Shown here piece after piece: positions 26,264 through 38,307 of a stretch of 43,682 nt of DNA. Both the position numbers and the translations under genes were made by a program. Source of the DNA: Pirellulales bacterium (lineage in GTDB: Bacteria > Planctomycetota > Planctomycetia > Pirellulales > JADZDJ01); contig DASRSD010000127.1 in assembly GCA_035656635.1 (NCBI GenBank), forward strand, positions 1 to 43,682, in the 5' to 3' direction. The notes under the pieces are model-generated. The model saw only the letters and a program-made list of their open reading frames with translations, searched no databases and was not told the origin of the DNA. Positions within the stretch are counted from its first letter, which is position 1. The number at the start of each line of letters is the position of its first letter.

Positions 26264-26348
26264 GAATTTGTGAATTACGATTCTGCTTTCATCATGCGTA
26301 GTGCAATCGGTTCGCTTTAGCACAAAATCGCCCGGGGAGCATTGGAAC

Positions 26349-29300
26349 ATGCACGGTCGGCTGTCGCTTCGCTTGGGAATGGTTCTGGCGTTGATGGGCG
26401 TTGCTGCCATCGCCTGGAGCGCTCCCAAAGGGGGCAAAGCCAAGCCAGGGGCCGCAAAAGCCAAGGCCGAATCAGAACAGGCCGGCGACAATTCGCAACC
26501 GGCCGCCGCCGATGCAGAAACCAGCGGCGGTGCAAAATCGGCCGATCAGCCGCCGCTGGTGGCACTGCAAGGAGGCGAAGGATCTGGCAATCCTGGGCCG
26601 CTGTATCACCAGGTAATGCATCAGGCGTTTTTGGCTACGGCCCGTGAGGAATTTGCGGCCGGCACTTACGATGCTCCGTTGCGCGAAGCGGCGCCCAAAA
26701 CAACGCAGCATGTGGAAACATTTCAGCTGTTTTCCAATTTCAATCCGGCGCAAGTGAAATTTGAAGTCACGCTGAACCGCATGCAGGCAGGCAAAGCCAC
26801 ACAGTTGTGGCGTAAGCAATTCACGATCGAAAAGCCCAACCACGATGCGCTGGAAAAGGAAGTCACCCGAGCCGAAGCCGCCATGCACGCGGAGTTTTTC
26901 GACTCCTTGAAAGCCGACGGCCTGGCGCCGGTGGCCCACGCCTGGCGAGACGATGCCTCCGTGCCCGCCGATGTGCAAAACTTATTGACCACGTTGACCA
27001 TTCCCAGCCAGTTTGCCGCGGCGCGGAAGCTGCACGCCTTAATTCGCGAAGATGCCGAATCGCCGGAGCGGCTTTCGGCCCTGGCTCGGGCTTACGCCAA
27101 TTTGGGAATGCTGACCGAGTATTTCTGGACCACGTCGACAAAGGATTTGACGGCCCGAGCACTCTTGTATGCAGAACGGCTGTATGCCAAGCAGCCCGAT
27201 GTGCCGGCCTTATGGTGCCGCGGATATGTGCGGGCGTTGGCGGGCCGGCAATCGACGGCGCTGGCCGATTTTGAAGCGGCCCATCAGCATGCGGCCAGCG
27301 ACGGCGGCAAACCCAACGAGGCAACGCCGCCGACTTGGGCGGCTTTGGCCGAAGCGTACTGTAAATACGACGCCAAAGCGCTTACGGAAAACGTCGAGGA
27401 GCGCTATGTTCCGCTGGCCAGTTGGCTGTATTACTGTGCCGTCGAACCCTCGTACGTCTCGCCGTTTTTGGGCACCGTGGTCGACTCTGTGCTGGAGAAA
27501 ACTCCGGATGCCTATCGGGTCATTGATGCCATGACGCGCGAAAGCAACTACCGCAATAACTGGGCGCTGCGGCAAATGGGAGCGGAATATGGACTGAGCA
27601 CTTCGGGCCAATACATCTATTCTGAATTGAACGATTTGCCCGATGCCCCTGCCCCAATCAAAGAAATTTGCCAGGCAGTTAAGCCGGGGAGCGATGAAGG
27701 GGCGGAGGAATATAAGCGGCGGGCCAAGCTCATGGCGGCGCTGCGAGCCGCCGACGCCGATGTCAAGCTGCGAGGCGAGCCCAGTTGGAGCGCGCTGGCC
27801 TCGCTGTTCGAAGACGTGGCCCTGGTGCAGGTATTTCGTGCATTGAATTCGCGAGCTGGCGGCGCCGATGATCCGGTCGAGCAAATGTGGCCGTTGGTGG
27901 CCGATCATCCATTAGGACCGCTGGTGAAACTGCATTCCAACGATGATGCTGTCCGAAAGGCCGCCCAGCAAGCGGCCCAGAACGTCAAGCTTCAAAGCCT
28001 GACCATGAGTGGCCGGCACCTGTTCAACGGGCTGCCTTGGTACGGCGGGGATGAAAAAGTTTATGAAAAAATGGATACCGATGTGTTTCATCGGTTCGAT
28101 GAAACTTTCCGCGACGATTGGCAAGTGTACCAAGATATCAGCGACGAATTTCGAGATCGCGTGCTGCTGGAGCAATTGCTCAAAGATGCTCCCCACATGC
28201 CCGTGACCGTGGGGGGTTTACTGGCGCGGCAACACGATTTGGCGGCGCCCCGGGTGGTTGCCTGGGAGCAGCAATATGCCGGCAATCCCGATATTTTGCT
28301 CCGGCTGGGGCGCTTTTATCGCGACGACGGCAAATACGATGAGGCCATTCGCATTTGGCAGGCGGCGCTGAAGCAGTATCCGGAGGAAGAAATTTATTCG
28401 CTGATGGCCGAAACGTACTTGAAGCAAGGAGACGAAGACCATTGGCTGGCCACGTGGGAAGAATGCATGGAAAAACTTCCCGAGCCAGAATCTAATCATA
28501 CGGGAATTTTGAACAATATTGCCCGGCACTCCATGCGCCAGCGGCAATGGGAAAAAGCATGGCCTTATGCCCAGCGAGCGGTGGATTCAGGATCGAGCGA
28601 GTCGCTGCAGACCCAGGCGTATTGTGCCGAGGCGCTGCAAAAATGGGATCTGGCCAGCGAAGATTTTTCCGCATACAGCCAGCAAAATTCCAGCGACATC
28701 TTCGATTGGTATTGGTTTTGCCGCCGGACGGGCTTCGGCAATCAGGACGAGGCCTTGCAGTTGTTGCAAAAATCAATGGCCAACTACGAACCCAATTCAT
28801 CCGATTTGATGCCGTATTATTATTCGGTTTCGTTGGCGCTGGACCGCCGGTTTGAAGAAGCCAACCGGTGGGTCAGCCTGGTGGTGGGGCGCACCAAGGA
28901 CGAAGTCATTCTGATGTATGCGGCATTGCTGGCCGATCGCTTGGGCCATTCCGCCGATCGCGATGCCTATTTGCGAAAAATTCTGTCGGAATCTCCCCAG
29001 CACCCACCCGAGGAGCTAACGCGGCCGGCGGTGGAAATCATTTCTTTGGCGGAATTAATGGTCGACGATTTGGCGGCCGGCGGCGAGGGGAAAATTGATT
29101 ACGACGAAGCCGCACGCCGTGGAGCCAGCGCCGAGCCGGGACAAAAGGGAGCGTTCTTTTTTTTCCTGGGCGACTATTACGAAATTCACGGCCAGAAGGC
29201 GCTGACCACCAAATGCTGGCAGCAGGCCATGTTGGATTCGCGGATCGATGGCACCGGCCGCACGCTGGCCGGGGCCCGGCTGTCGGATTCGTTTGTTTCG

Positions 29301-29735
29301 CCTGACGAATATCGGACCGCGCTGCAACAACCCCTAAGCAAGGAGGAATTGCACCCCGGTCCCCTGCCGAAATTGCGGCATCCGCCCGATGCCGTGGCAT
29401 TCGGCGAGCATTACTACAAATTCATTCCGCACAAGGCCATGACGTGGTCGGAAGCCAAGCAACTGGCCGATTACATGGGCGGTTATCTGGCCTGCATTGG
29501 CAGCGAGGATGAAGAAAAGTTTGTGGCCAGCTTGTGCAAGCGCAAGACTGCGTGGTTGGGCGGTTACCGCGAAAAAGGCCAATGGAAGTGGCTTAGCGGT
29601 GAACCGTTTGGGTATGAAAACTGGGCGCAGCCGAATATCGAGCAGCCGTATTTGCATACGATGCCCGGCGGAAAATGGCAAGCGATGAAAAATTATCCCG
29701 GCCAGGCGGGCTTTGTTTGCGAATGGGGACGGTAG
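26349..29735 (+). CDS. Large secreted TPR-like protein with C-terminal C-type lectin domain
   Basis: The 1128-residue protein has an N-terminal signal peptide (RLGMVLALMGVAAIAWSAPK) and an Ala/Lys/Glu-rich linker (to about residue 75). A very long helical-repeat region then follows with TPR-like units, for example NPDILLRLGRFYRDDGKYDE, IWQAALKQYPEEEIYSLMAE and ARHSMRQRQWEKAWPYAQRA. The last 110 residues form a C-type lectin-like domain: YYKFIPHKAMTWSEAKQLAD, then AWLGGYREKGQWKWLSGEPF, YENWAQPN and the closing GFVCEWGR. C-type lectin folds bind carbohydrates or proteins, sometimes through Ca. The ATG at 26349 has GGGGAG upstream. It seems to be a single-gene unit. Role unknown; a periplasmic or surface scaffold is likely. 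Confidence 0.82.
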   Translation: MHGRLSLRLGMVLALMGVAAIAWSAPKGGKAKPGAAKAKAESEQAGDNSQPAAADAETSGGAKSADQPPLVALQGGEGSGNPGPLYHQVMHQAFLATAREEFAAGTYDAPLREAAPKTTQHVETFQLFSNFNPAQVKFEVTLNRMQAGKATQLWRKQFTIEKPNHDALEKEVTRAEAAMHAEFFDSLKADGLAPVAHAWRDDASVPADVQNLLTTLTIPSQFAAARKLHALIREDAESPERLSALARAYANLGMLTEYFWTTSTKDLTARALLYAERLYAKQPDVPALWCRGYVRALAGRQSTALADFEAAHQHAASDGGKPNEATPPTWAALAEAYCKYDAKALTENVEERYVPLASWLYYCAVEPSYVSPFLGTVVDSVLEKTPDAYRVIDAMTRESNYRNNWALRQMGAEYGLSTSGQYIYSELNDLPDAPAPIKEICQAVKPGSDEGAEEYKRRAKLMAALRAADADVKLRGEPSWSALASLFEDVALVQVFRALNSRAGGADDPVEQMWPLVADHPLGPLVKLHSNDDAVRKAAQQAAQNVKLQSLTMSGRHLFNGLPWYGGDEKVYEKMDTDVFHRFDETFRDDWQVYQDISDEFRDRVLLEQLLKDAPHMPVTVGGLLARQHDLAAPRVVAWEQQYAGNPDILLRLGRFYRDDGKYDEAIRIWQAALKQYPEEEIYSLMAETYLKQGDEDHWLATWEECMEKLPEPESNHTGILNNIARHSMRQRQWEKAWPYAQRAVDSGSSESLQTQAYCAEALQKWDLASEDFSAYSQQNSSDIFDWYWFCRRTGFGNQDEALQLLQKSMANYEPNSSDLMPYYYSVSLALDRRFEEANRWVSLVVGRTKDEVILMYAALLADRLGHSADRDAYLRKILSESPQHPPEELTRPAVEIISLAELMVDDLAAGGEGKIDYDEAARRGASAEPGQKGAFFFFLGDYYEIHGQKALTTKCWQQAMLDSRIDGTGRTLAGARLSDSFVSPDEYRTALQQPLSKEELHPGPLPKLRHPPDAVAFGEHYYKFIPHKAMTWSEAKQLADYMGGYLACIGSEDEEKFVASLCKRKTAWLGGYREKGQWKWLSGEPFGYENWAQPNIEQPYLHTMPGGKWQAMKNYPGQAGFVCEWGR

Positions 29736-31958: not shown

Positions 31959-31986
31959 TTGACTCTCCCTCACCGGGGTCTATAAT
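31959..31986 (+). promoter_or_regulatory. Strong sigma70-type promoter of the NfeD/FloA cluster
   Basis: -35 TTGACT (31959-31964), 16-bp spacer, -10 TATAAT (31981-31986). This is the best promoter match in the window. The transcript should start near 31993. Confidence 0.75.
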
Positions 31987-32005
31987 CGGGCGTGTAATTG
32001 TTGTC

Positions 32006-32023
32006 TGCGCAAGAGCTTGCGCA
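32006..32023 (+). promoter_or_regulatory. Palindrome just downstream of the NfeD promoter
   Basis: TGCGCAAGAGCTTGCGCA: perfect 8-bp arms with a 2-base centre, about 13-30 bases after the expected transcription start and 7 bases before the first ATG. It could be an operator or a leader hairpin hiding the translation start (the AAGAG inside it is the only purine-rich site there). Confidence 0.5.
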
Positions 32024-32030
32024 TTTTCAC

Positions 32031-34418
32031 ATGGATTGGCTCTGGCCCGATATGACACTGGCAAAACACGCCTGTGGCGCGTCAGGACGGAATGGCGTGC
32101 GGCGGATTTCCCATTGGTTCATTTCGCATTGCCTGGTCTGGCAGTGCGCGATGTTAGCCGTGGTTTGCTTTACTTCGTCCAATCCGTTTTCGGCCTGTGC
32201 AGCCGATGATGAACCCGCTCCGGCGGCTACCGCCGATAAAACTGGAGATTCGGCTGCCGCTCAAAAACCGGCCGAAAACAAACAACCCAGTGAGAATGCC
32301 CCTGCCGATCGCCCAGACAGCGAAAAACCAGCCGACTCAGCGCGTCGCGGGCAAGGCTTTTTGGTGCGGGTAGATTTGCCTATTACCGACGATGTCGATA
32401 CCCAAGTTCGCCGCGGCATCACGCAGTTGCTCGGTAACCTGAAGCCGGGCGGACCGCGGCCGATATTGGTCGTGGAGTTGTGGCCAGGGCAAACCGAGGG
32501 CGGTGCGGGGAGCGATTTCTTCCGTTCCTTGTCACTGGCAAAGTTCCTCTCGCGCGATTTGCGTGATTTGGCCCGCGGCGTAAAAACCGTCGCCTATATT
32601 CCCAAAACGGTGAAGGGGCACGCAGTGCTGGTGGCAATGGCCTGCGAAGAAATCATCATGGCGCCCAATGCCGAAATTGGCGAAGCCGGCATCGACGAAT
32701 CGGTCATCGGCCCCACGATTCATAGCGGCTACAAAGAAATTGCCGACGCCCGGGGCACCATTCCTGCCGCCATTGCACTCGGCATGCTCGACAAAAATCT
32801 CAAAGTGCTAAAAGTTTCGACGGAAGTTGGCACTGAGTATGTCTTGGAAGACGGGCTGGACGAGCTCAAAAAGCATCGGGTGGTGCAAAATGTGGAAGAA
32901 CTGCAGCCCCGGCCGCTGTTGGTCGATGGTCGGCAGGCTCGGCAAGATTTGGGATTCGTCAGTTATTTAGCCGACGACCGGACCGATGTTGCCCGGGCTT
33001 TGAAAATTCCAATCGATTCGCTGCAAGACAATCCCGGCCTGGTCGGCGGTTGGCGGCCAGTGCAGGTCGATTTGAAGCGCCCCATTACCGCAACCACGGT
33101 CAGCCGCGTGCAGAAACTGATGCAAGACCAAATTCGCGTCAACGATGTGAACCTGGTTGTGCTGTATATCGAGAGCGACGGCGGATCGTACGACGACGCT
33201 TTGCGCTTGGTGAGTTATCTTGCCGGGCTCGATTCCAGCAAGGTTCGCACCGTGGCCTACGTTCCGCACCGGGCGCGCGGCGATGCCGCACTGATTGCGC
33301 TGGCCTGTGATCAACTTGTGATGGGTCCGAATGCGAAGCTCGGCGGCGAAGGAGCCGACGTGCTGAAGGCCGATGCCAGGCCGCTGGCCGTGAGCGTGCT
33401 GCGCGAAGCGCTGAGTAAAGATAAATCGCGCTCCTGGTCGCTGCCGGCGGCGATGATCGATCCGGAATTGAAGGTGTATCGCTACACCAATCCCAGCACG
33501 AATATGTCCGGCTATTTCTGCGAGGAAGAATTAAAGCAGCAGCGCGATCCCGCCGCATGGAAGCAAGGGGAATTGGTCACGGGGACTCGCGGCCCATTGC
33601 AGCTTACCGGGCCTAAGGCGGAACAGTTGGGGTTGGCTTGGAAAGTGGTCGATAACTTCGAGCAATTCAAGCAGGCCTACGGCCTGGAGCGCAATCCGGC
33701 AATGGTCGAGCCCGGCTGGGCCGATTTTTTAATCGACGCGCTAACGTCCGAAGGGGCGCGCATGTTTTTGCTGATCATGATTTTCGTCGGCGTGTATTTG
33801 GAAGTGCACGCGCCGGGCGTGGGAATTGGCGGGTTTATTGCCTTGCTTTCCGCGCTGTTATACTTTTGGGCGCAGCATCTGCAAGGCAATCCGGTGGCGT
33901 TGCAATTGATTCTGTTTTTCGCAGGCATATTGTGCGTGGCGCTGGAAATTTTTGTGCTGCCGGGTCTCGCCATTTTCGGCTTTGGCGGCGGGCTGATGAT
34001 TATTGCCTCGTTGGTGCTGGCCAGCCAAACGTTTGTGATTCCCGGCAATGAATATCAATGGGATAAGCTTCGCAATTCGCTCTTGGTGCTCGGCGGGGCC
34101 ATCTCGGGAAGCTTAGTCGCGGCGGTGGTTATTCGCCGGTTCCTGCCGCATGCGCCGGTGTTTAATCGGATGATGCTGCAGCCTCCCTCCAATGAAGAAA
34201 TGGAAATTATTTCACAGCGGGAAGCTCTCGCCGATTTCCGCCACTTGCTGGGGCAACAGGGGGTGGCAACCACCCGGTTAATTCTGTCAGGCAAAGCCCG
34301 CATTGGCGATCAGTTGGTCGACGTCATTGCCGATGGGGAAGCCATCGACCGTGGCATGCCGGTTACCGTCGTCGACGTGATCGGAAGCCGGGTGGTGGTA
34401 CGCTCGGTGCGGGCATAA
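32031..34418 (+). CDS. NfeD-family membrane serine protease-like protein (two ClpP-like domains)
   Basis: A 795-residue membrane protein. The first ATG downstream of the mapped-looking promoter is at 32031; the ATG at 32052 is also possible, and the TTG at 31998 is too close to the transcript start. Order: signal/anchor (about 30-55), an acidic Ala/Pro linker, a first ClpP-like region (RVDLPITDDVDTQVRRGITQ ... EEIIMAPNAEIGEAGI), a second one (RVNDVNLVVLYIESDGGSYD ... LACDQLVMGPNAKLGGEGAD), then four to five membrane helices (from MFLLIMIFVGVYLEVHAPGV) and a C-terminal NfeD OB-fold (GQQGVATTRLILSGKARIGD). NfeD1b proteins pair with SPFH/stomatin-type proteins, which fits the FloA gene two genes on. 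Whether either ClpP-like domain is catalytic is unclear. Confidence 0.88.
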   Translation: MDWLWPDMTLAKHACGASGRNGVRRISHWFISHCLVWQCAMLAVVCFTSSNPFSACAADDEPAPAATADKTGDSAAAQKPAENKQPSENAPADRPDSEKPADSARRGQGFLVRVDLPITDDVDTQVRRGITQLLGNLKPGGPRPILVVELWPGQTEGGAGSDFFRSLSLAKFLSRDLRDLARGVKTVAYIPKTVKGHAVLVAMACEEIIMAPNAEIGEAGIDESVIGPTIHSGYKEIADARGTIPAAIALGMLDKNLKVLKVSTEVGTEYVLEDGLDELKKHRVVQNVEELQPRPLLVDGRQARQDLGFVSYLADDRTDVARALKIPIDSLQDNPGLVGGWRPVQVDLKRPITATTVSRVQKLMQDQIRVNDVNLVVLYIESDGGSYDDALRLVSYLAGLDSSKVRTVAYVPHRARGDAALIALACDQLVMGPNAKLGGEGADVLKADARPLAVSVLREALSKDKSRSWSLPAAMIDPELKVYRYTNPSTNMSGYFCEEELKQQRDPAAWKQGELVTGTRGPLQLTGPKAEQLGLAWKVVDNFEQFKQAYGLERNPAMVEPGWADFLIDALTSEGARMFLLIMIFVGVYLEVHAPGVGIGGFIALLSALLYFWAQHLQGNPVALQLILFFAGILCVALEIFVLPGLAIFGFGGGLMIIASLVLASQTFVIPGNEYQWDKLRNSLLVLGGAISGSLVAAVVIRRFLPHAPVFNRMMLQPPSNEEMEIISQREALADFRHLLGQQGVATTRLILSGKARIGDQLVDVIADGEAIDRGMPVTVVDVIGSRVVVRSVRA

Positions 34419-34544
34419 ACTATGCGGGGGATCAATGTGGCCGCCGGGCCCCGAGTTCCCCTCTTTCGCAATTCCGCGTAAAATTTCCGGCGTGTCGATT
34501 GTTCGCTCCTTTTCTCCTTTGATCCTCGCCTCGCACTTCAAAAG

Positions 34545-35141
34545 ATGTCTCCAGTTTTTTGGTCCGCTCTGCTGCTAATGGTGGGACTGTCATTAACGAT
34601 GGCAGAGATTTTCGTCCCGTCGGGGGGCGTAATTGGGTTTCTTTCGTTCGTTTCCATCATTGCCGCCATTGTGATGGCGTTTTTGCAAAGTGGGCCAACC
34701 GTGGGAATTATGTTTTTGTCCGTGGCCTGCATTGCGGTGCCGGCAGTGTTGGCGGCGGCGTTTCGACTTTTGCCCCGCACCCCGGTAGGCAGACGGTTGC
34801 TCCCAAGCATTCCCACGGCCGAGGAAGTGTTGCCCGACAGCGACGATCGCCGCCGCTTGCGGCAACTCGTGGGTCGGGTGGGAGAAGCGAAATCGAAAAT
34901 GTTGCCTAGCGGCGCGGTGACCGTCGACGGCCAAACCATTGACGCCATGAGCGAGGGACAGCCGATTGAACCGGGCCAGGCGGTACGGGTCATTGAAGTC
35001 CGCGGCACGATGGTCGTGGTTCGGCCCATCGATCCCGCGTCGGCCGGGGATGTTAGGGGAAAAGACGCGGAGCAGGCTGACGATATTTTGTCGCGCCCCA
35101 TCGATACGTTGGGACTCGATCCGTTCGATCCATTACAATAA
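34545..35141 (+). CDS. Short NfeD-family membrane protein
   Basis: A 198-residue protein with three N-terminal membrane helices (ALLLMVGLSLTMAEIFVPSG, FLSFVSIIAAIVMAFLQ, IMFLSVACIAVPAVLAAAF) and a soluble NfeD-type OB-fold (residues about 105-165: QLVGRVGEAKSKMLPSGAVT, then EPGQAVRVIEVRGTMVVVRP). It lacks the protease part. The C-terminal 30 residues are acidic and variable. It lies between the long NfeD gene (127 bp upstream) and floA (174 bp downstream), all on one strand, as expected for a membrane-microdomain set. Confidence 0.88.
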   Translation: MSPVFWSALLLMVGLSLTMAEIFVPSGGVIGFLSFVSIIAAIVMAFLQSGPTVGIMFLSVACIAVPAVLAAAFRLLPRTPVGRRLLPSIPTAEEVLPDSDDRRRLRQLVGRVGEAKSKMLPSGAVTVDGQTIDAMSEGQPIEPGQAVRVIEVRGTMVVVRPIDPASAGDVRGKDAEQADDILSRPIDTLGLDPFDPLQ

Positions 35142-35314
35142 AGGCCCTGGTTTTCGCGGCAATTCATTGCTGGGAATGCCCTGCGGCTTGACACGACCCC
35201 ACAGGTTGGCAACACTGCGCAGTTGGTTGGCGATGGCCTAAATTGTGCTATGCCGGAAGAGGCCAGCAACCTACACGACTGAACCCGCGCTGCAATTTCC
35301 AAGTTGAGATTTTC

Positions 35315-36361
35315 ATGCCCATGCTCATTGCCGATGCCGAAGTTGGTCAAGTGGTGACAATCGCTATTATTTTGGTGGGCATTGTCGTGGCGCTCGTGGC
35401 GCTGGTAGTGTTTGCCCGGTATTTTCGCCTCTGGATTCAGTCCGTCACCACGGGGGCAAGCATTGGCATTTTCGATTTGTTGGGCATGACGTTTCGCAAA
35501 GTGAACCCAGCGGTAATTGTGCGCAGCAAAATTATGGCCGTGCAGGCCGGTTTGGGGGAAGAAACTGGCATCACCAGCAAGGCGCTAGAGGCGCATTATT
35601 TAGCCGGCGGGCGAGTGCCGCTGGTAATTCGAGCCATAATTGCCGCCAATAAAGCCAAAACCATCAAGCTTGGCTACAAATTGGCCACCGCCATCGATTT
35701 GGCCGGCCGCGACGTTTTGGAATCGGTAAAAACCAGTGTCTATCCCAAGGTCATCGATTGCCCGGCTCGGGGCTCCGGCAAAGAAACGCTCGATGCCGTG
35801 GCCAAAAATGGCATTCAATGCCGGGTAAAAGCCCGCGTGACGGTGCGCACGAATTTGAATCAGGTGATCGGCGGGGCGACGGAGGAGACCATTATTGCCC
35901 GGGTGGGCGAAGGCATTGTGAGCGCCATCGGCTCGTCGGAAACTCACATGGACGTGTTGGAAAATCCGGATCGCATTTCCAAGGCCGTACTGGCGCGGCG
36001 GCTCGATTCGCAAACCGCGTTTGAAATTGTGTCCATCGATATTGCCGACATAGATGTGGGTGAGAATATTGGCGCTCGTCTGCAAGCCGACCGGGCCGAG
36101 GCCGACATGCGCATCGCCCGCGCCAAAGCCGAAGAACGTCGAGCAATGGCCGTGGCCTTGGAACAAGAGAACATTGCCTCGATTGAAGGCGCCCGGGCAG
36201 GCCTGGTGGCGGCTGAAGCAGAAGTGCCCAAAGCCATTGCCGCGGCGTTCCAAAACGGGGCCTTGGGAATATTGGATTACTACAAGCTGCGGAACATTCA
36301 GGCCGATACCGAGATGCGGCGCAGCATTTCCGGCGTGGGTGTAACGACGACGCCGACCTAA
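35315..36361 (+). CDS. floA: Flotillin-like protein FloA
   Basis: A 348-residue member of the FloA (YqfA, UPF0365) SPFH-type family that organises membrane microdomains in Bacillus. One N-terminal membrane hairpin ([20 protein letters not shown]) is followed by the SPFH-like domain ([60 protein letters not shown]) and a helical Ala/Glu-rich flotillin region ([20 protein letters not shown]). The end [20 protein letters not shown] is family-typical. The ATG at 35315 ([14 protein letters not shown]) is preferred over the longer frame from 35243. Works presumably with the NfeD proteins encoded upstream. Confidence 0.95.
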
Positions 36362-36445
36362 TTGAAGCGCCGCGGGCAAGGATCGAAGGGGCAGGGCAGG
36401 GAAACGGAACTGCGAATCAGCCTGAACATCGAATTATAAGTGACC

Positions 36446-37318
36446 ATGTCCATGTATTTGTTGGCTTTCGGGTGGAACGACTTTTTAACCCTCATGCCGT
36501 TCATTATCGCCCTGTTGGTGTGGGTGATTGGCCGCTTTGCCGGACAGGTTCCCCAGAAGCCGCCGCAACGCGGGGCTGCACCGCCGAAGCCGCTTCCGCA
36601 GCAACAGCCTCCCCAAGGGGCCGGTGATCCGCTGCAATCGGAAATCGATCAATTTTTGCGGCAAGCGCAGGCCGCGCGCGAAGGGCGCGCCGCTGCCAAG
36701 CCTGCCAAGGCAATGCCAGCCGCTGGCCAAGTGCCCGCCACTGGTCAAGCTCCAGGAACCATGGAGCCTTCCAGCGGTCGCCCAGGCAATGTGCAAAGGC
36801 AGCGTCCCTCTCGTCGGGCACCGGCAGCACAACAGCCGGGAGGTAGTTCGCGGCGGGAGGAAAAACCTTCCTCTTCGCGTCCCGCTAGATCCCCGAGGGT
36901 AGAAGTGGCGCGCGCTCCGACGCCAACACCGCCGGCAACCCCTCGGGAATCGGTTGCCCAGCATGTTGCAGAAACATTAGATGATTCCGTATTTGCGAGG
37001 CGGACTGTGCAACTCAGCCGCGTGAAAGCGGCCGACGACGATTTTCGCGCCCACATGCAGCGGGTGTTTCAGCACGATGTGGGGAGCTTAAAAGATAACA
37101 ATCTATCCCCTGGCAGCAGGGCTAGCGTGACCGGAGCTTCATCGGCTACTGGTGGCATGTCTCCAAACGCAGCGGCAGCCATTGCGCCGGTGGCACGGCA
37201 ATTGAACGATCGCAAACTGGCCGGCGATATTGCACTGCTGTTGGCTGGCCGCAAGGGCCTTCGCGATGCCGTCATTCTGACCGAAATCTTCCAGCGGCCG
37301 GAACGGTGGGAAGACTAA
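36446..37318 (+). CDS. Membrane-anchored protein of unknown function
   Basis: I do not recognise the family. The 290-residue protein has one N-terminal membrane helix ([17 protein letters not shown]), then a long disordered Pro/Gln/Ala/Arg-rich stretch (residues about 35-185), and a conserved-looking C-terminal helix block ([20 protein letters not shown], then [15 protein letters not shown]). A GTG two codons before the ATG at 36446 is an alternative start. The last gene of the NfeD-NfeD-FloA set, 84 bp after floA, so it may be a partner of FloA. The next gene follows 78 bp later but is an unrelated enzyme. Confidence 0.7.
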
Positions 37319-37395: not shown

Positions 37396-38307
37396 ATGGA
37401 TACTGTTGCTCCGGGAAAAACGCGCTTGGGATGGATCGGCGCCGGCGTGATGGGCCGCAGCATGTGCGGCCATTTGATCGACCGGGGTTTCGCCATGACG
37501 ATCTTCAGCCGCACCAAATCCAAAGCTGAAGCGCTCTTGGGCAAGGGGGCCCAATGGGCCGATTCGCCGCAAGCTGTGGCTGCGCAAGCCGACGTGGTGT
37601 TCAGCATTGTTGGGTTTCCAGCCGATGTCCGCGAAATTATGCTCGGTCCGCAGGGAGCGCTGGCTGGGAGCAAACCGGGCACCGTGCTGGCCGACATGAC
37701 CACAAGCGAACCATCGCTGGCCGTGGAAATTGCAGAAAAGGCAAAAGCCAAAGGAGTACACGCCGTCGACGCGCCCGTTTCCGGCGGCGACGTGGGCGCA
37801 CGTGAGGCGCGGTTGTCGATGATGATTGGCGGCGAGCGCAACGTGGTAGAAGCCTTGCAGCCCTGTTGGGAAGCGATGGGCAAAACCATTGTGTATCAGG
37901 GACCGCCCGGCGCCGGGCAGCACACAAAAATGGTCAATCAAATTCTGATTGCCACGGGCATGATCGGGGTGTGCGAGGCGCTGTTGTACGGTTACAAGGC
38001 CGGCTTGAATTTGGAAAGCGTGATGCAATCGGTTTCTTCCGGGGCGGCGGGAAGCTGGTCGCTTTCCAATTACGGGCCGCGGATCATGGCCAATAATTTC
38101 GACCCAGGATTTTTTGTCGAGCATTTCATCAAAGACATGGGAATTGCTTTGGAAGAGTCCAAACGCATGGGCTTGTCGATGCCCGGGCTAGCGCTGGCGC
38201 ATCAGTTGTATGTGGCGCTGAAAGCCCAAGGACATGGCCGCGACGGCACGCATTCGCTGATGTTGGCGCTGGCGTCGTTGTCGAATGTCGATTGGAAGAA
38301 GCGTTGA
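37396..38307 (+). CDS. Beta-hydroxyacid dehydrogenase (3-hydroxyisobutyrate/tartronate semialdehyde reductase family)
   Basis: A 303-residue NAD(P)-dependent oxidoreductase. Rossmann start [20 protein letters not shown], substrate-binding signature [20 protein letters not shown], catalytic lysine in [12 protein letters not shown], and the C-terminal helix domain with [20 protein letters not shown]. The ATG at 37396 follows GAGG; the longer frame from 37306 is not supported. Possible reactions include 2-hydroxy-3-oxopropionate or 3-hydroxyisobutyrate oxidation/reduction; the sequence alone does not decide. Confidence 0.9.

Follow-up and report, generated by a model that had tools for sequence, protein, structure and literature searches.

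An unnamed gene family behind floA encodes a candidate third component of the NfeD-FloA membrane microdomain system in bacteria

The window analyzed here is a stretch of 43,682 nucleotides from a Pirellulales bacterium (GCA_035656635.1, contig DASRSD010000127.1), whose genome (G000) amounts to 4.9 Mb in 190 contigs. The cluster of two NfeD genes, floA and an unrecognized fourth gene that the initial annotation had delineated in it is borne out at the same coordinates, and its proposed promoter corresponds to a promoter-like site which is preceded by the divergent ispD and tyrS genes. The constituents of the cluster, with the gene starts being our choice, are as follows:

31959..31986, plus strand: promoter-like site of the sigma-70 type, TTGACT-16-TATAAT, with 11 of 12 consensus matches
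32006..32023, plus strand: inverted repeat with 8-bp arms and a 2-nt centre in the NfeD1 leader (repeat search, comparison with G001)
32052..34418, plus strand: NfeD1, with two ClpP-like domains lacking the nucleophile serine, an NfeD membrane domain and an NfeD C-terminal domain (Pfam, AF2/PDB, nucleophile columns)
34545..35141, plus strand: NfeD2, a short NfeD with a membrane part and an NfeD C-terminal domain (Pfam)
35315..36361, plus strand: FloA, of the FloA-1 type with a conserved C-tail (PF12127, tail comparison)
36446..37318, plus strand: X, an unnamed gene with a conserved C-terminal block (alignment, profile, AF2)

The start of X at ATG 36446 is inferred from locus L006, the longest X frame opening at GTG 36440. 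X is followed by a 3-hydroxyisobutyrate-dehydrogenase-like gene (37396-38307), a relative of which also follows in 15 of the 18 FloA loci of the order.

Both promoter hexamers are kept in G001, the other genome of the same genus examined, with a differing spacer (7/14 identical), and the leader stretch 31979-32044 is identical at 61 of 66 positions. The most likely start of NfeD1 is ATG 32052 rather than the in-frame ATG 32031, because a 1-nt indel relative to G001 falls between the two ATGs and the frame is kept past 32052; the G001 counterpart of ATG 32031 begins a frame of its own, 49 codons long. This start, suggested by the sequence comparison, would place the repeat in the leader. A small upstream frame may exist in G001, these 49 codons beginning at an ATG just past the repeat (L028:2189-2338).

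The repeat had been described as an 18-bp palindrome that could serve as the operator of the cluster. It does lie between the promoter-like site and the NfeD1 start, but it is symmetric at 16 of 18 positions, its 8-bp arms surrounding a non-symmetric AG. Inverted repeats of this type (arms of 8, spacers of 0-8) are not rare in the window, which contains 17 of them against a mean of 12.1 (range 5-20) in 30 first-order Markov samples, and what favours the leader copy is limited to where it lies and to its being identical in G001, where all 18 positions are preserved within the longest identical run (31 nt). The window genome has a single exact copy, and among the 57 genomes of the order exact copies are confined to G000 and G001. 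With up to one mismatch these 57 genomes yield 17 forward matches (2 of them the native sites), and the reversed control gives 13. Allowing up to two mismatches in the window's own genome gives 8 versus 2, and the three inspected of its seven other sites all lie inside long open frames. A regulon element was rejected given the lack of a clear order-wide excess over the reversed control and the location of the inspected sites in open frames. An unusually stable hairpin was likewise rejected, the z-scores for the two 83-nt leaders being 0.64 and 0.19; folded to minimum energy, the window leader is without the repeat hairpin and the G001 leader contains it. The operator proposal has the identity in G001 in its favour but is accompanied by no clear sign of a regulon, and the repeat may be an operator used only at this cluster.

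NfeD1 displays the NfeD1b-type architecture, with PF25145, PF24961 and PF01957 all above cut-off and the fold in agreement. The two successive ClpP-like regions recognized earlier ahead of the NfeD helices are both recovered. The second matches Pfam NfeD1b_N (4.9e-14) and aligns with the stomatin protease PH1510-N (VIA-align Z 18.6, 175 residues, 2.9 A). The first has little sequence support (S49, E 0.16), and is recognized through the AF2 model (mean pLDDT 74), residues 100-552 of which align with the tandem SppA structures 3bf0 and 3bez at a global rmsd of about 20 A. Two successive ClpP-like folds are therefore supported by the model, this support not extending to their mutual placement. 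Searched against the PDB, the NfeD1 sequence on its own returned no match and a profile did. The second, short NfeD protein matches Pfam NfeD with 53.8 bits and NfeD_membrane with 26.5 bits versus a cut-off of 26.

The ClpP-like fold is shared with PH1510-N and SppA (PDB: 2deo, 6m4b, 3bf0), the tandem arrangement being that of SppA; unlike in PH1510-N, the position of the nucleophile Ser97 is occupied in the window NfeD1 by a glycine of domain 2. This column was identified from the S97A entry 6m4b compared with the wild-type chain, through a profile alignment. Across 11 NfeD1 sequences of the order it holds seven glycines, three alanines and one serine (L042), with L044 showing a serine two residues further on. 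The parallel position of domain 1, set by motif parallel and not by superposition, is glycine in 11/11 sequences and is followed by an invariant histidine. Because the nucleophile columns hold glycine or alanine in 10/11 sequences (domain 2) and glycine in all 11 (domain 1), the tandem pair looks like a kept pseudo-protease, suggesting that NfeD can retain its ClpP-like part without the nucleophile. The earlier characterization of the cluster as a protease set is doubtful for the same reason.

The product of X consists of an N-terminal membrane helix, a disordered-looking Pro/Gln-rich linker, an EIDQFLR helix, an FQHDVG region and a conserved C-terminal block, in agreement with its first description as an unrecognized, membrane-anchored protein with such a block. 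While the AF2 model is poor as a whole (mean pLDDT 62), the membrane helix is predicted at residues 12-36, in a block with pLDDT up to 95, and alignment and hydropathy agree. The tail is far better conserved than the remainder of the protein. Its consensus is LRxA[IV][IVL]xxE[IV]LGPPxALR, taking the form EIL-x-R-P-x-x-R-W in the order, and the window X contains the C-terminal motif A-h-h-x-x-E-[IV]-[LF]-x-x-P. The residues A277, E282 and P287 are invariant across the 30 sequences of alignment A4, which combines five other proteins with 25 of the 81 motif-bearing ones that have a membrane helix. Alignment A1 used 21 of 23 rows (the two dropped were the truncated L020 and one containing a stretch of N), and A3 omits 8 of 41 (L107, L118, L121, L129, L137, L140, L148, L157).

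X has no consistent Pfam or NCBIfam match that would assign it to a named family. Two candidate relationships were rejected, namely GltJ (NF033761), with 18.6 bits versus a cut-off of 450 over the Pro/Gln-rich linker, and IcmG/DotF, with a match over the low-complexity linker far below cut-off. Apparent FloA-X fusions were also dismissed, as the coordinates of the four long frames concerned (L211, L237, L249, L259) place them in another frame than FloA.

The adjoining FloA is unambiguous, with 467.6 bits for PF12127 versus a cut-off of 34 (profile positions 3-312 of 314) and 472.8 bits for the NCBIfam FloA model versus 393. FloA is found in 56 of the 57 genomes of the order. A search with the single X sequence recovers X in 22 of them, and a profile built from 21 X proteins does so in 56, including 51/51 of the better genomes. 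In 53 of these 56 genomes X lies directly behind FloA on the same strand, with a median gap of 72 bp and a largest gap of 454 bp, FloA-2 rows (see below) being left out and a single X piece being counted per place where the match was split. The exceptions are G004 and G039, which belong to one genus and have the two genes on different contigs, and G052, with a weak match. FloA is present in 18 of the 19 larger loci of the order, and both NfeDs are detectable upstream in 10. In 8 of the 18 no NfeD is detectable within 4-7 kb upstream and X still stands behind FloA, whereby the link of X to FloA is tighter than that of NfeD.

Across the phylum Planctomycetota, a sample of 149 genomes spread over it contains FloA in 117, and the profile made from the order matches 25, all with FloA. 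It thus reaches only 25 of the 117 FloA-bearing genomes. The DNA behind FloA explains this limited reach: apart from the membrane helix, the tail and frequently a helix of the form E-x-x-x-[FY]-L, the X proteins of the phylum have almost nothing in common. Of the 23 profile matches beyond the order, many of them very weak, 20 lie directly behind FloA. In the DNA behind 58 FloA loci of the phylum an X-like gene is found in 41 by a loose regular expression and in 34 by a strict one; six further loci are X-like by eye (L110, L112, L115, L122, L130, L142), six show nothing X-like by eye (L109, L128, L132, L153, L155, L156), and the remaining five are ambiguous or cut, two of them (L114, L116) carrying a profile match behind FloA. 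Where FloA has no adjacent X, matches elsewhere in the genome reach E-values of only 0.03-0.07 in G058, G133 and G118, and none is found in G177, G105 and G144. None of four FloA-less genomes contains X as judged with the A4 profile.

The conservation of the tail allowed a scan of genome contigs with a degenerate DNA pattern of the 15-residue motif that used no information on FloA. It detected at least 116 loci in about a dozen phyla. Among the matches listed, FloA lies directly upstream on the same strand in 97 of 116. In 12 the upstream DNA is too short, L184, L235 and L245 among these having proved adjacent through other loci, and in seven there is enough DNA and FloA is not adjacent. An N-terminal membrane helix is present in 81 of the 97 FloA-adjacent matches listed. 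Assigned to phyla by their record titles, those listed comprise 48 Verrucomicrobiota, 19 Planctomycetota, 18 Gemmatimonadota, 6 Bacillota, 6 Desulfobacterota, 5 Actinomycetota, 2 each of Chloroflexota, Eremiobacterota and Atribacteria, 1 each of Kiritimatiellae, Acidobacteriota, Spirochaetota, Acetothermia and Bacteroidetes (the last with the motif only and no adjacency call), and 3 unplaced. Co-occurrence with floA, which had been suggested as the check on the last gene, is strongly upheld in the order, in the other Planctomycetota and among the motif matches listed. Five of the seven non-adjacent loci (L223, L231, L266, L268, L272) are Verrucomicrobiaceae by title, and these genomes keep X, with the full tail motif, away from FloA.

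Independent samples selected by FloA alone give a concordant picture. FloA occurs in 11 of 41 genomes of Gemmatimonadota; of the 11 loci, 5 are followed by a strict tail and five more by degenerate tails recognizable by eye (L356, L362, L363, L364, L365). In Verrucomicrobiota it occurs in 25 of 39 genomes; of the 27 loci, 14 are followed by a strict tail and eight more by degenerate tails recognized by eye (L368, L377, L379, L380, L386, L387, L388, L389); the glutamate of the motif is replaced, by eye, in 8 of these 27 loci. The strict misses include L298, with no DNA behind FloA, L378, with 442 bases, and the FloA-2 copies L390 and L391, and the true misses of the tail by eye in these samples are L373 and L294. 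In the family of Cytobacillus gottheilii X is found in 56 of 61 genomes, with FloA in the same short locus in 30/30 loci and the tail motif in 27/30.

This distribution bears on the possibility that co-expression alone keeps X, as an unrelated small membrane protein, behind floA. Operon neighbours can travel together, as the dehydrogenase-like gene behind X does in the order; yet the same place, architecture and tail recur in about a dozen phyla while the NfeD neighbours come and go, making this explanation highly improbable. The position of the motif, no more than 16 residues from the C-terminus in 115 of the 116 matches listed, would also suit a degradation or sorting signal, X then being a client or regulator of the FloA-NfeD assembly with a short lifetime; so would the otherwise disordered-looking AF2 model. 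However, the NfeD1 of the order is without its nucleophile in 10 of 11 sequences, and the tails of the Cytobacillus family run about ten residues past the motif, which is unusual for a signal read from the end. We accordingly regard X as improbable in such a role.

At least two FloA matches are present in 53 of the 57 genomes of the order, pointing to a paralogue, FloA-2, which ends ahead of the segment LG[IV]xDYYxxRNxQADTxMR that FloA-1 keeps. This C-tail is present in all 10 FloA-1 proteins compared and missing in all 16 FloA-2 proteins compared; the second paralogue of the window genome, also without it, lies at G000:C39:9204-10094 (L337:5091-6131). No X-like gene was found behind any of 20 FloA-2 genes with the regular expression that detects X behind FloA-1 in 15/18 loci of the order and 41/58 of the phylum, and that gives 19 matches, X genes included, in the 1122 open frames of 90 codons or more from the order loci. 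The C-tail is proposed as the docking site of X because FloA-2, which is without the tail, is also without X. Six planctomycetal FloA proteins with no X behind them still keep the C-tail; it is not kept solely for X. In some Planctomycetota (L111, L112, L119, L123) FloA-1, X and FloA-2 stand in a row, with X between the paralogues.

An alternative to docking on FloA is that X acts in the same pathway while its tail binds another conserved machine, such as a membrane protease like FtsH, the Sec translocon or a nuclease, and brings it to FloA domains without the tail touching FloA. A tail so much better kept than the rest of X is what might be expected of the ligand of a conserved partner, the present data do not point to that partner, and the retention of the C-tail by FloA proteins without an adjacent X is in line with this version. 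Against it, X is tied to FloA-1 and was found behind none of the 20 FloA-2 genes, and every phylum-sample genome with an X match has FloA, so that we consider it rather unlikely.

Among previously described systems, the closest is the operon of SPFH5 with an NfeD homologue, the comparative treatment of which we take to be that of Hinderhofer and others. In the accessible text of that study the yqfA-yqeZ pair represents SPFH5 with a ClpP-bearing NfeD homologue (PMC2636767), and the planctomycetes are among the holders of SPFH5, FloA adjoining the NfeD homologue as in the window. Unlike in the window, which adds the short NfeD2 and X, no third component is described in that portion of the paper (PMC2636767), and the ClpP-like part of the window NfeD1 is a tandem without nucleophile. 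In Bacillus subtilis the sigma-W operon yqeZ-floA-yqfB has the same order of NfeD, FloA (YqfA) and a small gene, and in the available portions of the sources its induction is linked to sublancin resistance (PMC3498285, PMC8144471), a floA mutant is more sensitive to sublancin (PMC4409396) and yqfB is catalogued among conserved proteins of unknown function (PMC12563154). X is the counterpart of yqfB by gene order and by the sampled Cytobacillus family, the sequence of YqfB itself being outside the comparison; the E. coli YqfB, an ASCH amidohydrolase in the excerpted account (PMC6972931), appears to share the name only. In Staphylococcus aureus FloA and NfeD form a chaperone-like assembly, in which the OB-like C-terminal domain of NfeD is on the cytoplasmic side and binds the coiled coil of FloA; unlike in the window, the accessible part of that report mentions no third partner (PMC11222466). 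As far as the open literature could be consulted in its available portions, the gene behind floA figures only in sigma-W gene lists, a note on sublancin and an unknown-function entry, leaving the third gene undescribed, and no openly accessible paper was found for the tail string EILGPP.

Taken together, these observations make it reasonably probable that X is a third component of the NfeD-FloA microdomain, belonging to a bacteria-wide unnamed family encoded behind floA, whose tail would dock on the FloA assembly. The proposal that the last protein of the cluster is a new FloA partner strongly fits the gene order, and the binding itself we infer. The single membrane helix would anchor X, with the C-terminus in the cytoplasm as the positive residues after the helix suggest, and the fast-evolving Pro/Gln-rich linker could act as a flexible arm. 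The C-terminal peptide would form a short helix and turn and dock on the FloA assembly, most likely on the conserved C-tail of FloA (DYYxxxNxxADTxMR). The arm might thereby anchor oligomers of FloA, or their bound clients, at the membrane beside NfeD, a role of scaffold or adaptor rather than of protease.

X is probably a functional component that has so far been missing from the account of bacterial membrane microdomains. More tentatively, and with somewhat less than even confidence, it may be envisaged as a general third subunit of FloA-NfeD throughout about a dozen phyla, the tail being a universal docking peptide for the FloA C-tail and the flexible arm controlling flotillin assembly or client capture; X could then have been overlooked given how little beyond its C-terminal motif is conserved. 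The function and partner choice of bacterial flotillins are an old open question, on which a conserved third gene with a short, synthesizable tail offers a direct handle, and if X is a true partner, work on the FloA-NfeD system has so far left out one of its components. Elsewhere in the window, positions 26301-29735 encode a protein of 1144 amino acids combining TPR repeats with a C-terminal C-type lectin domain.
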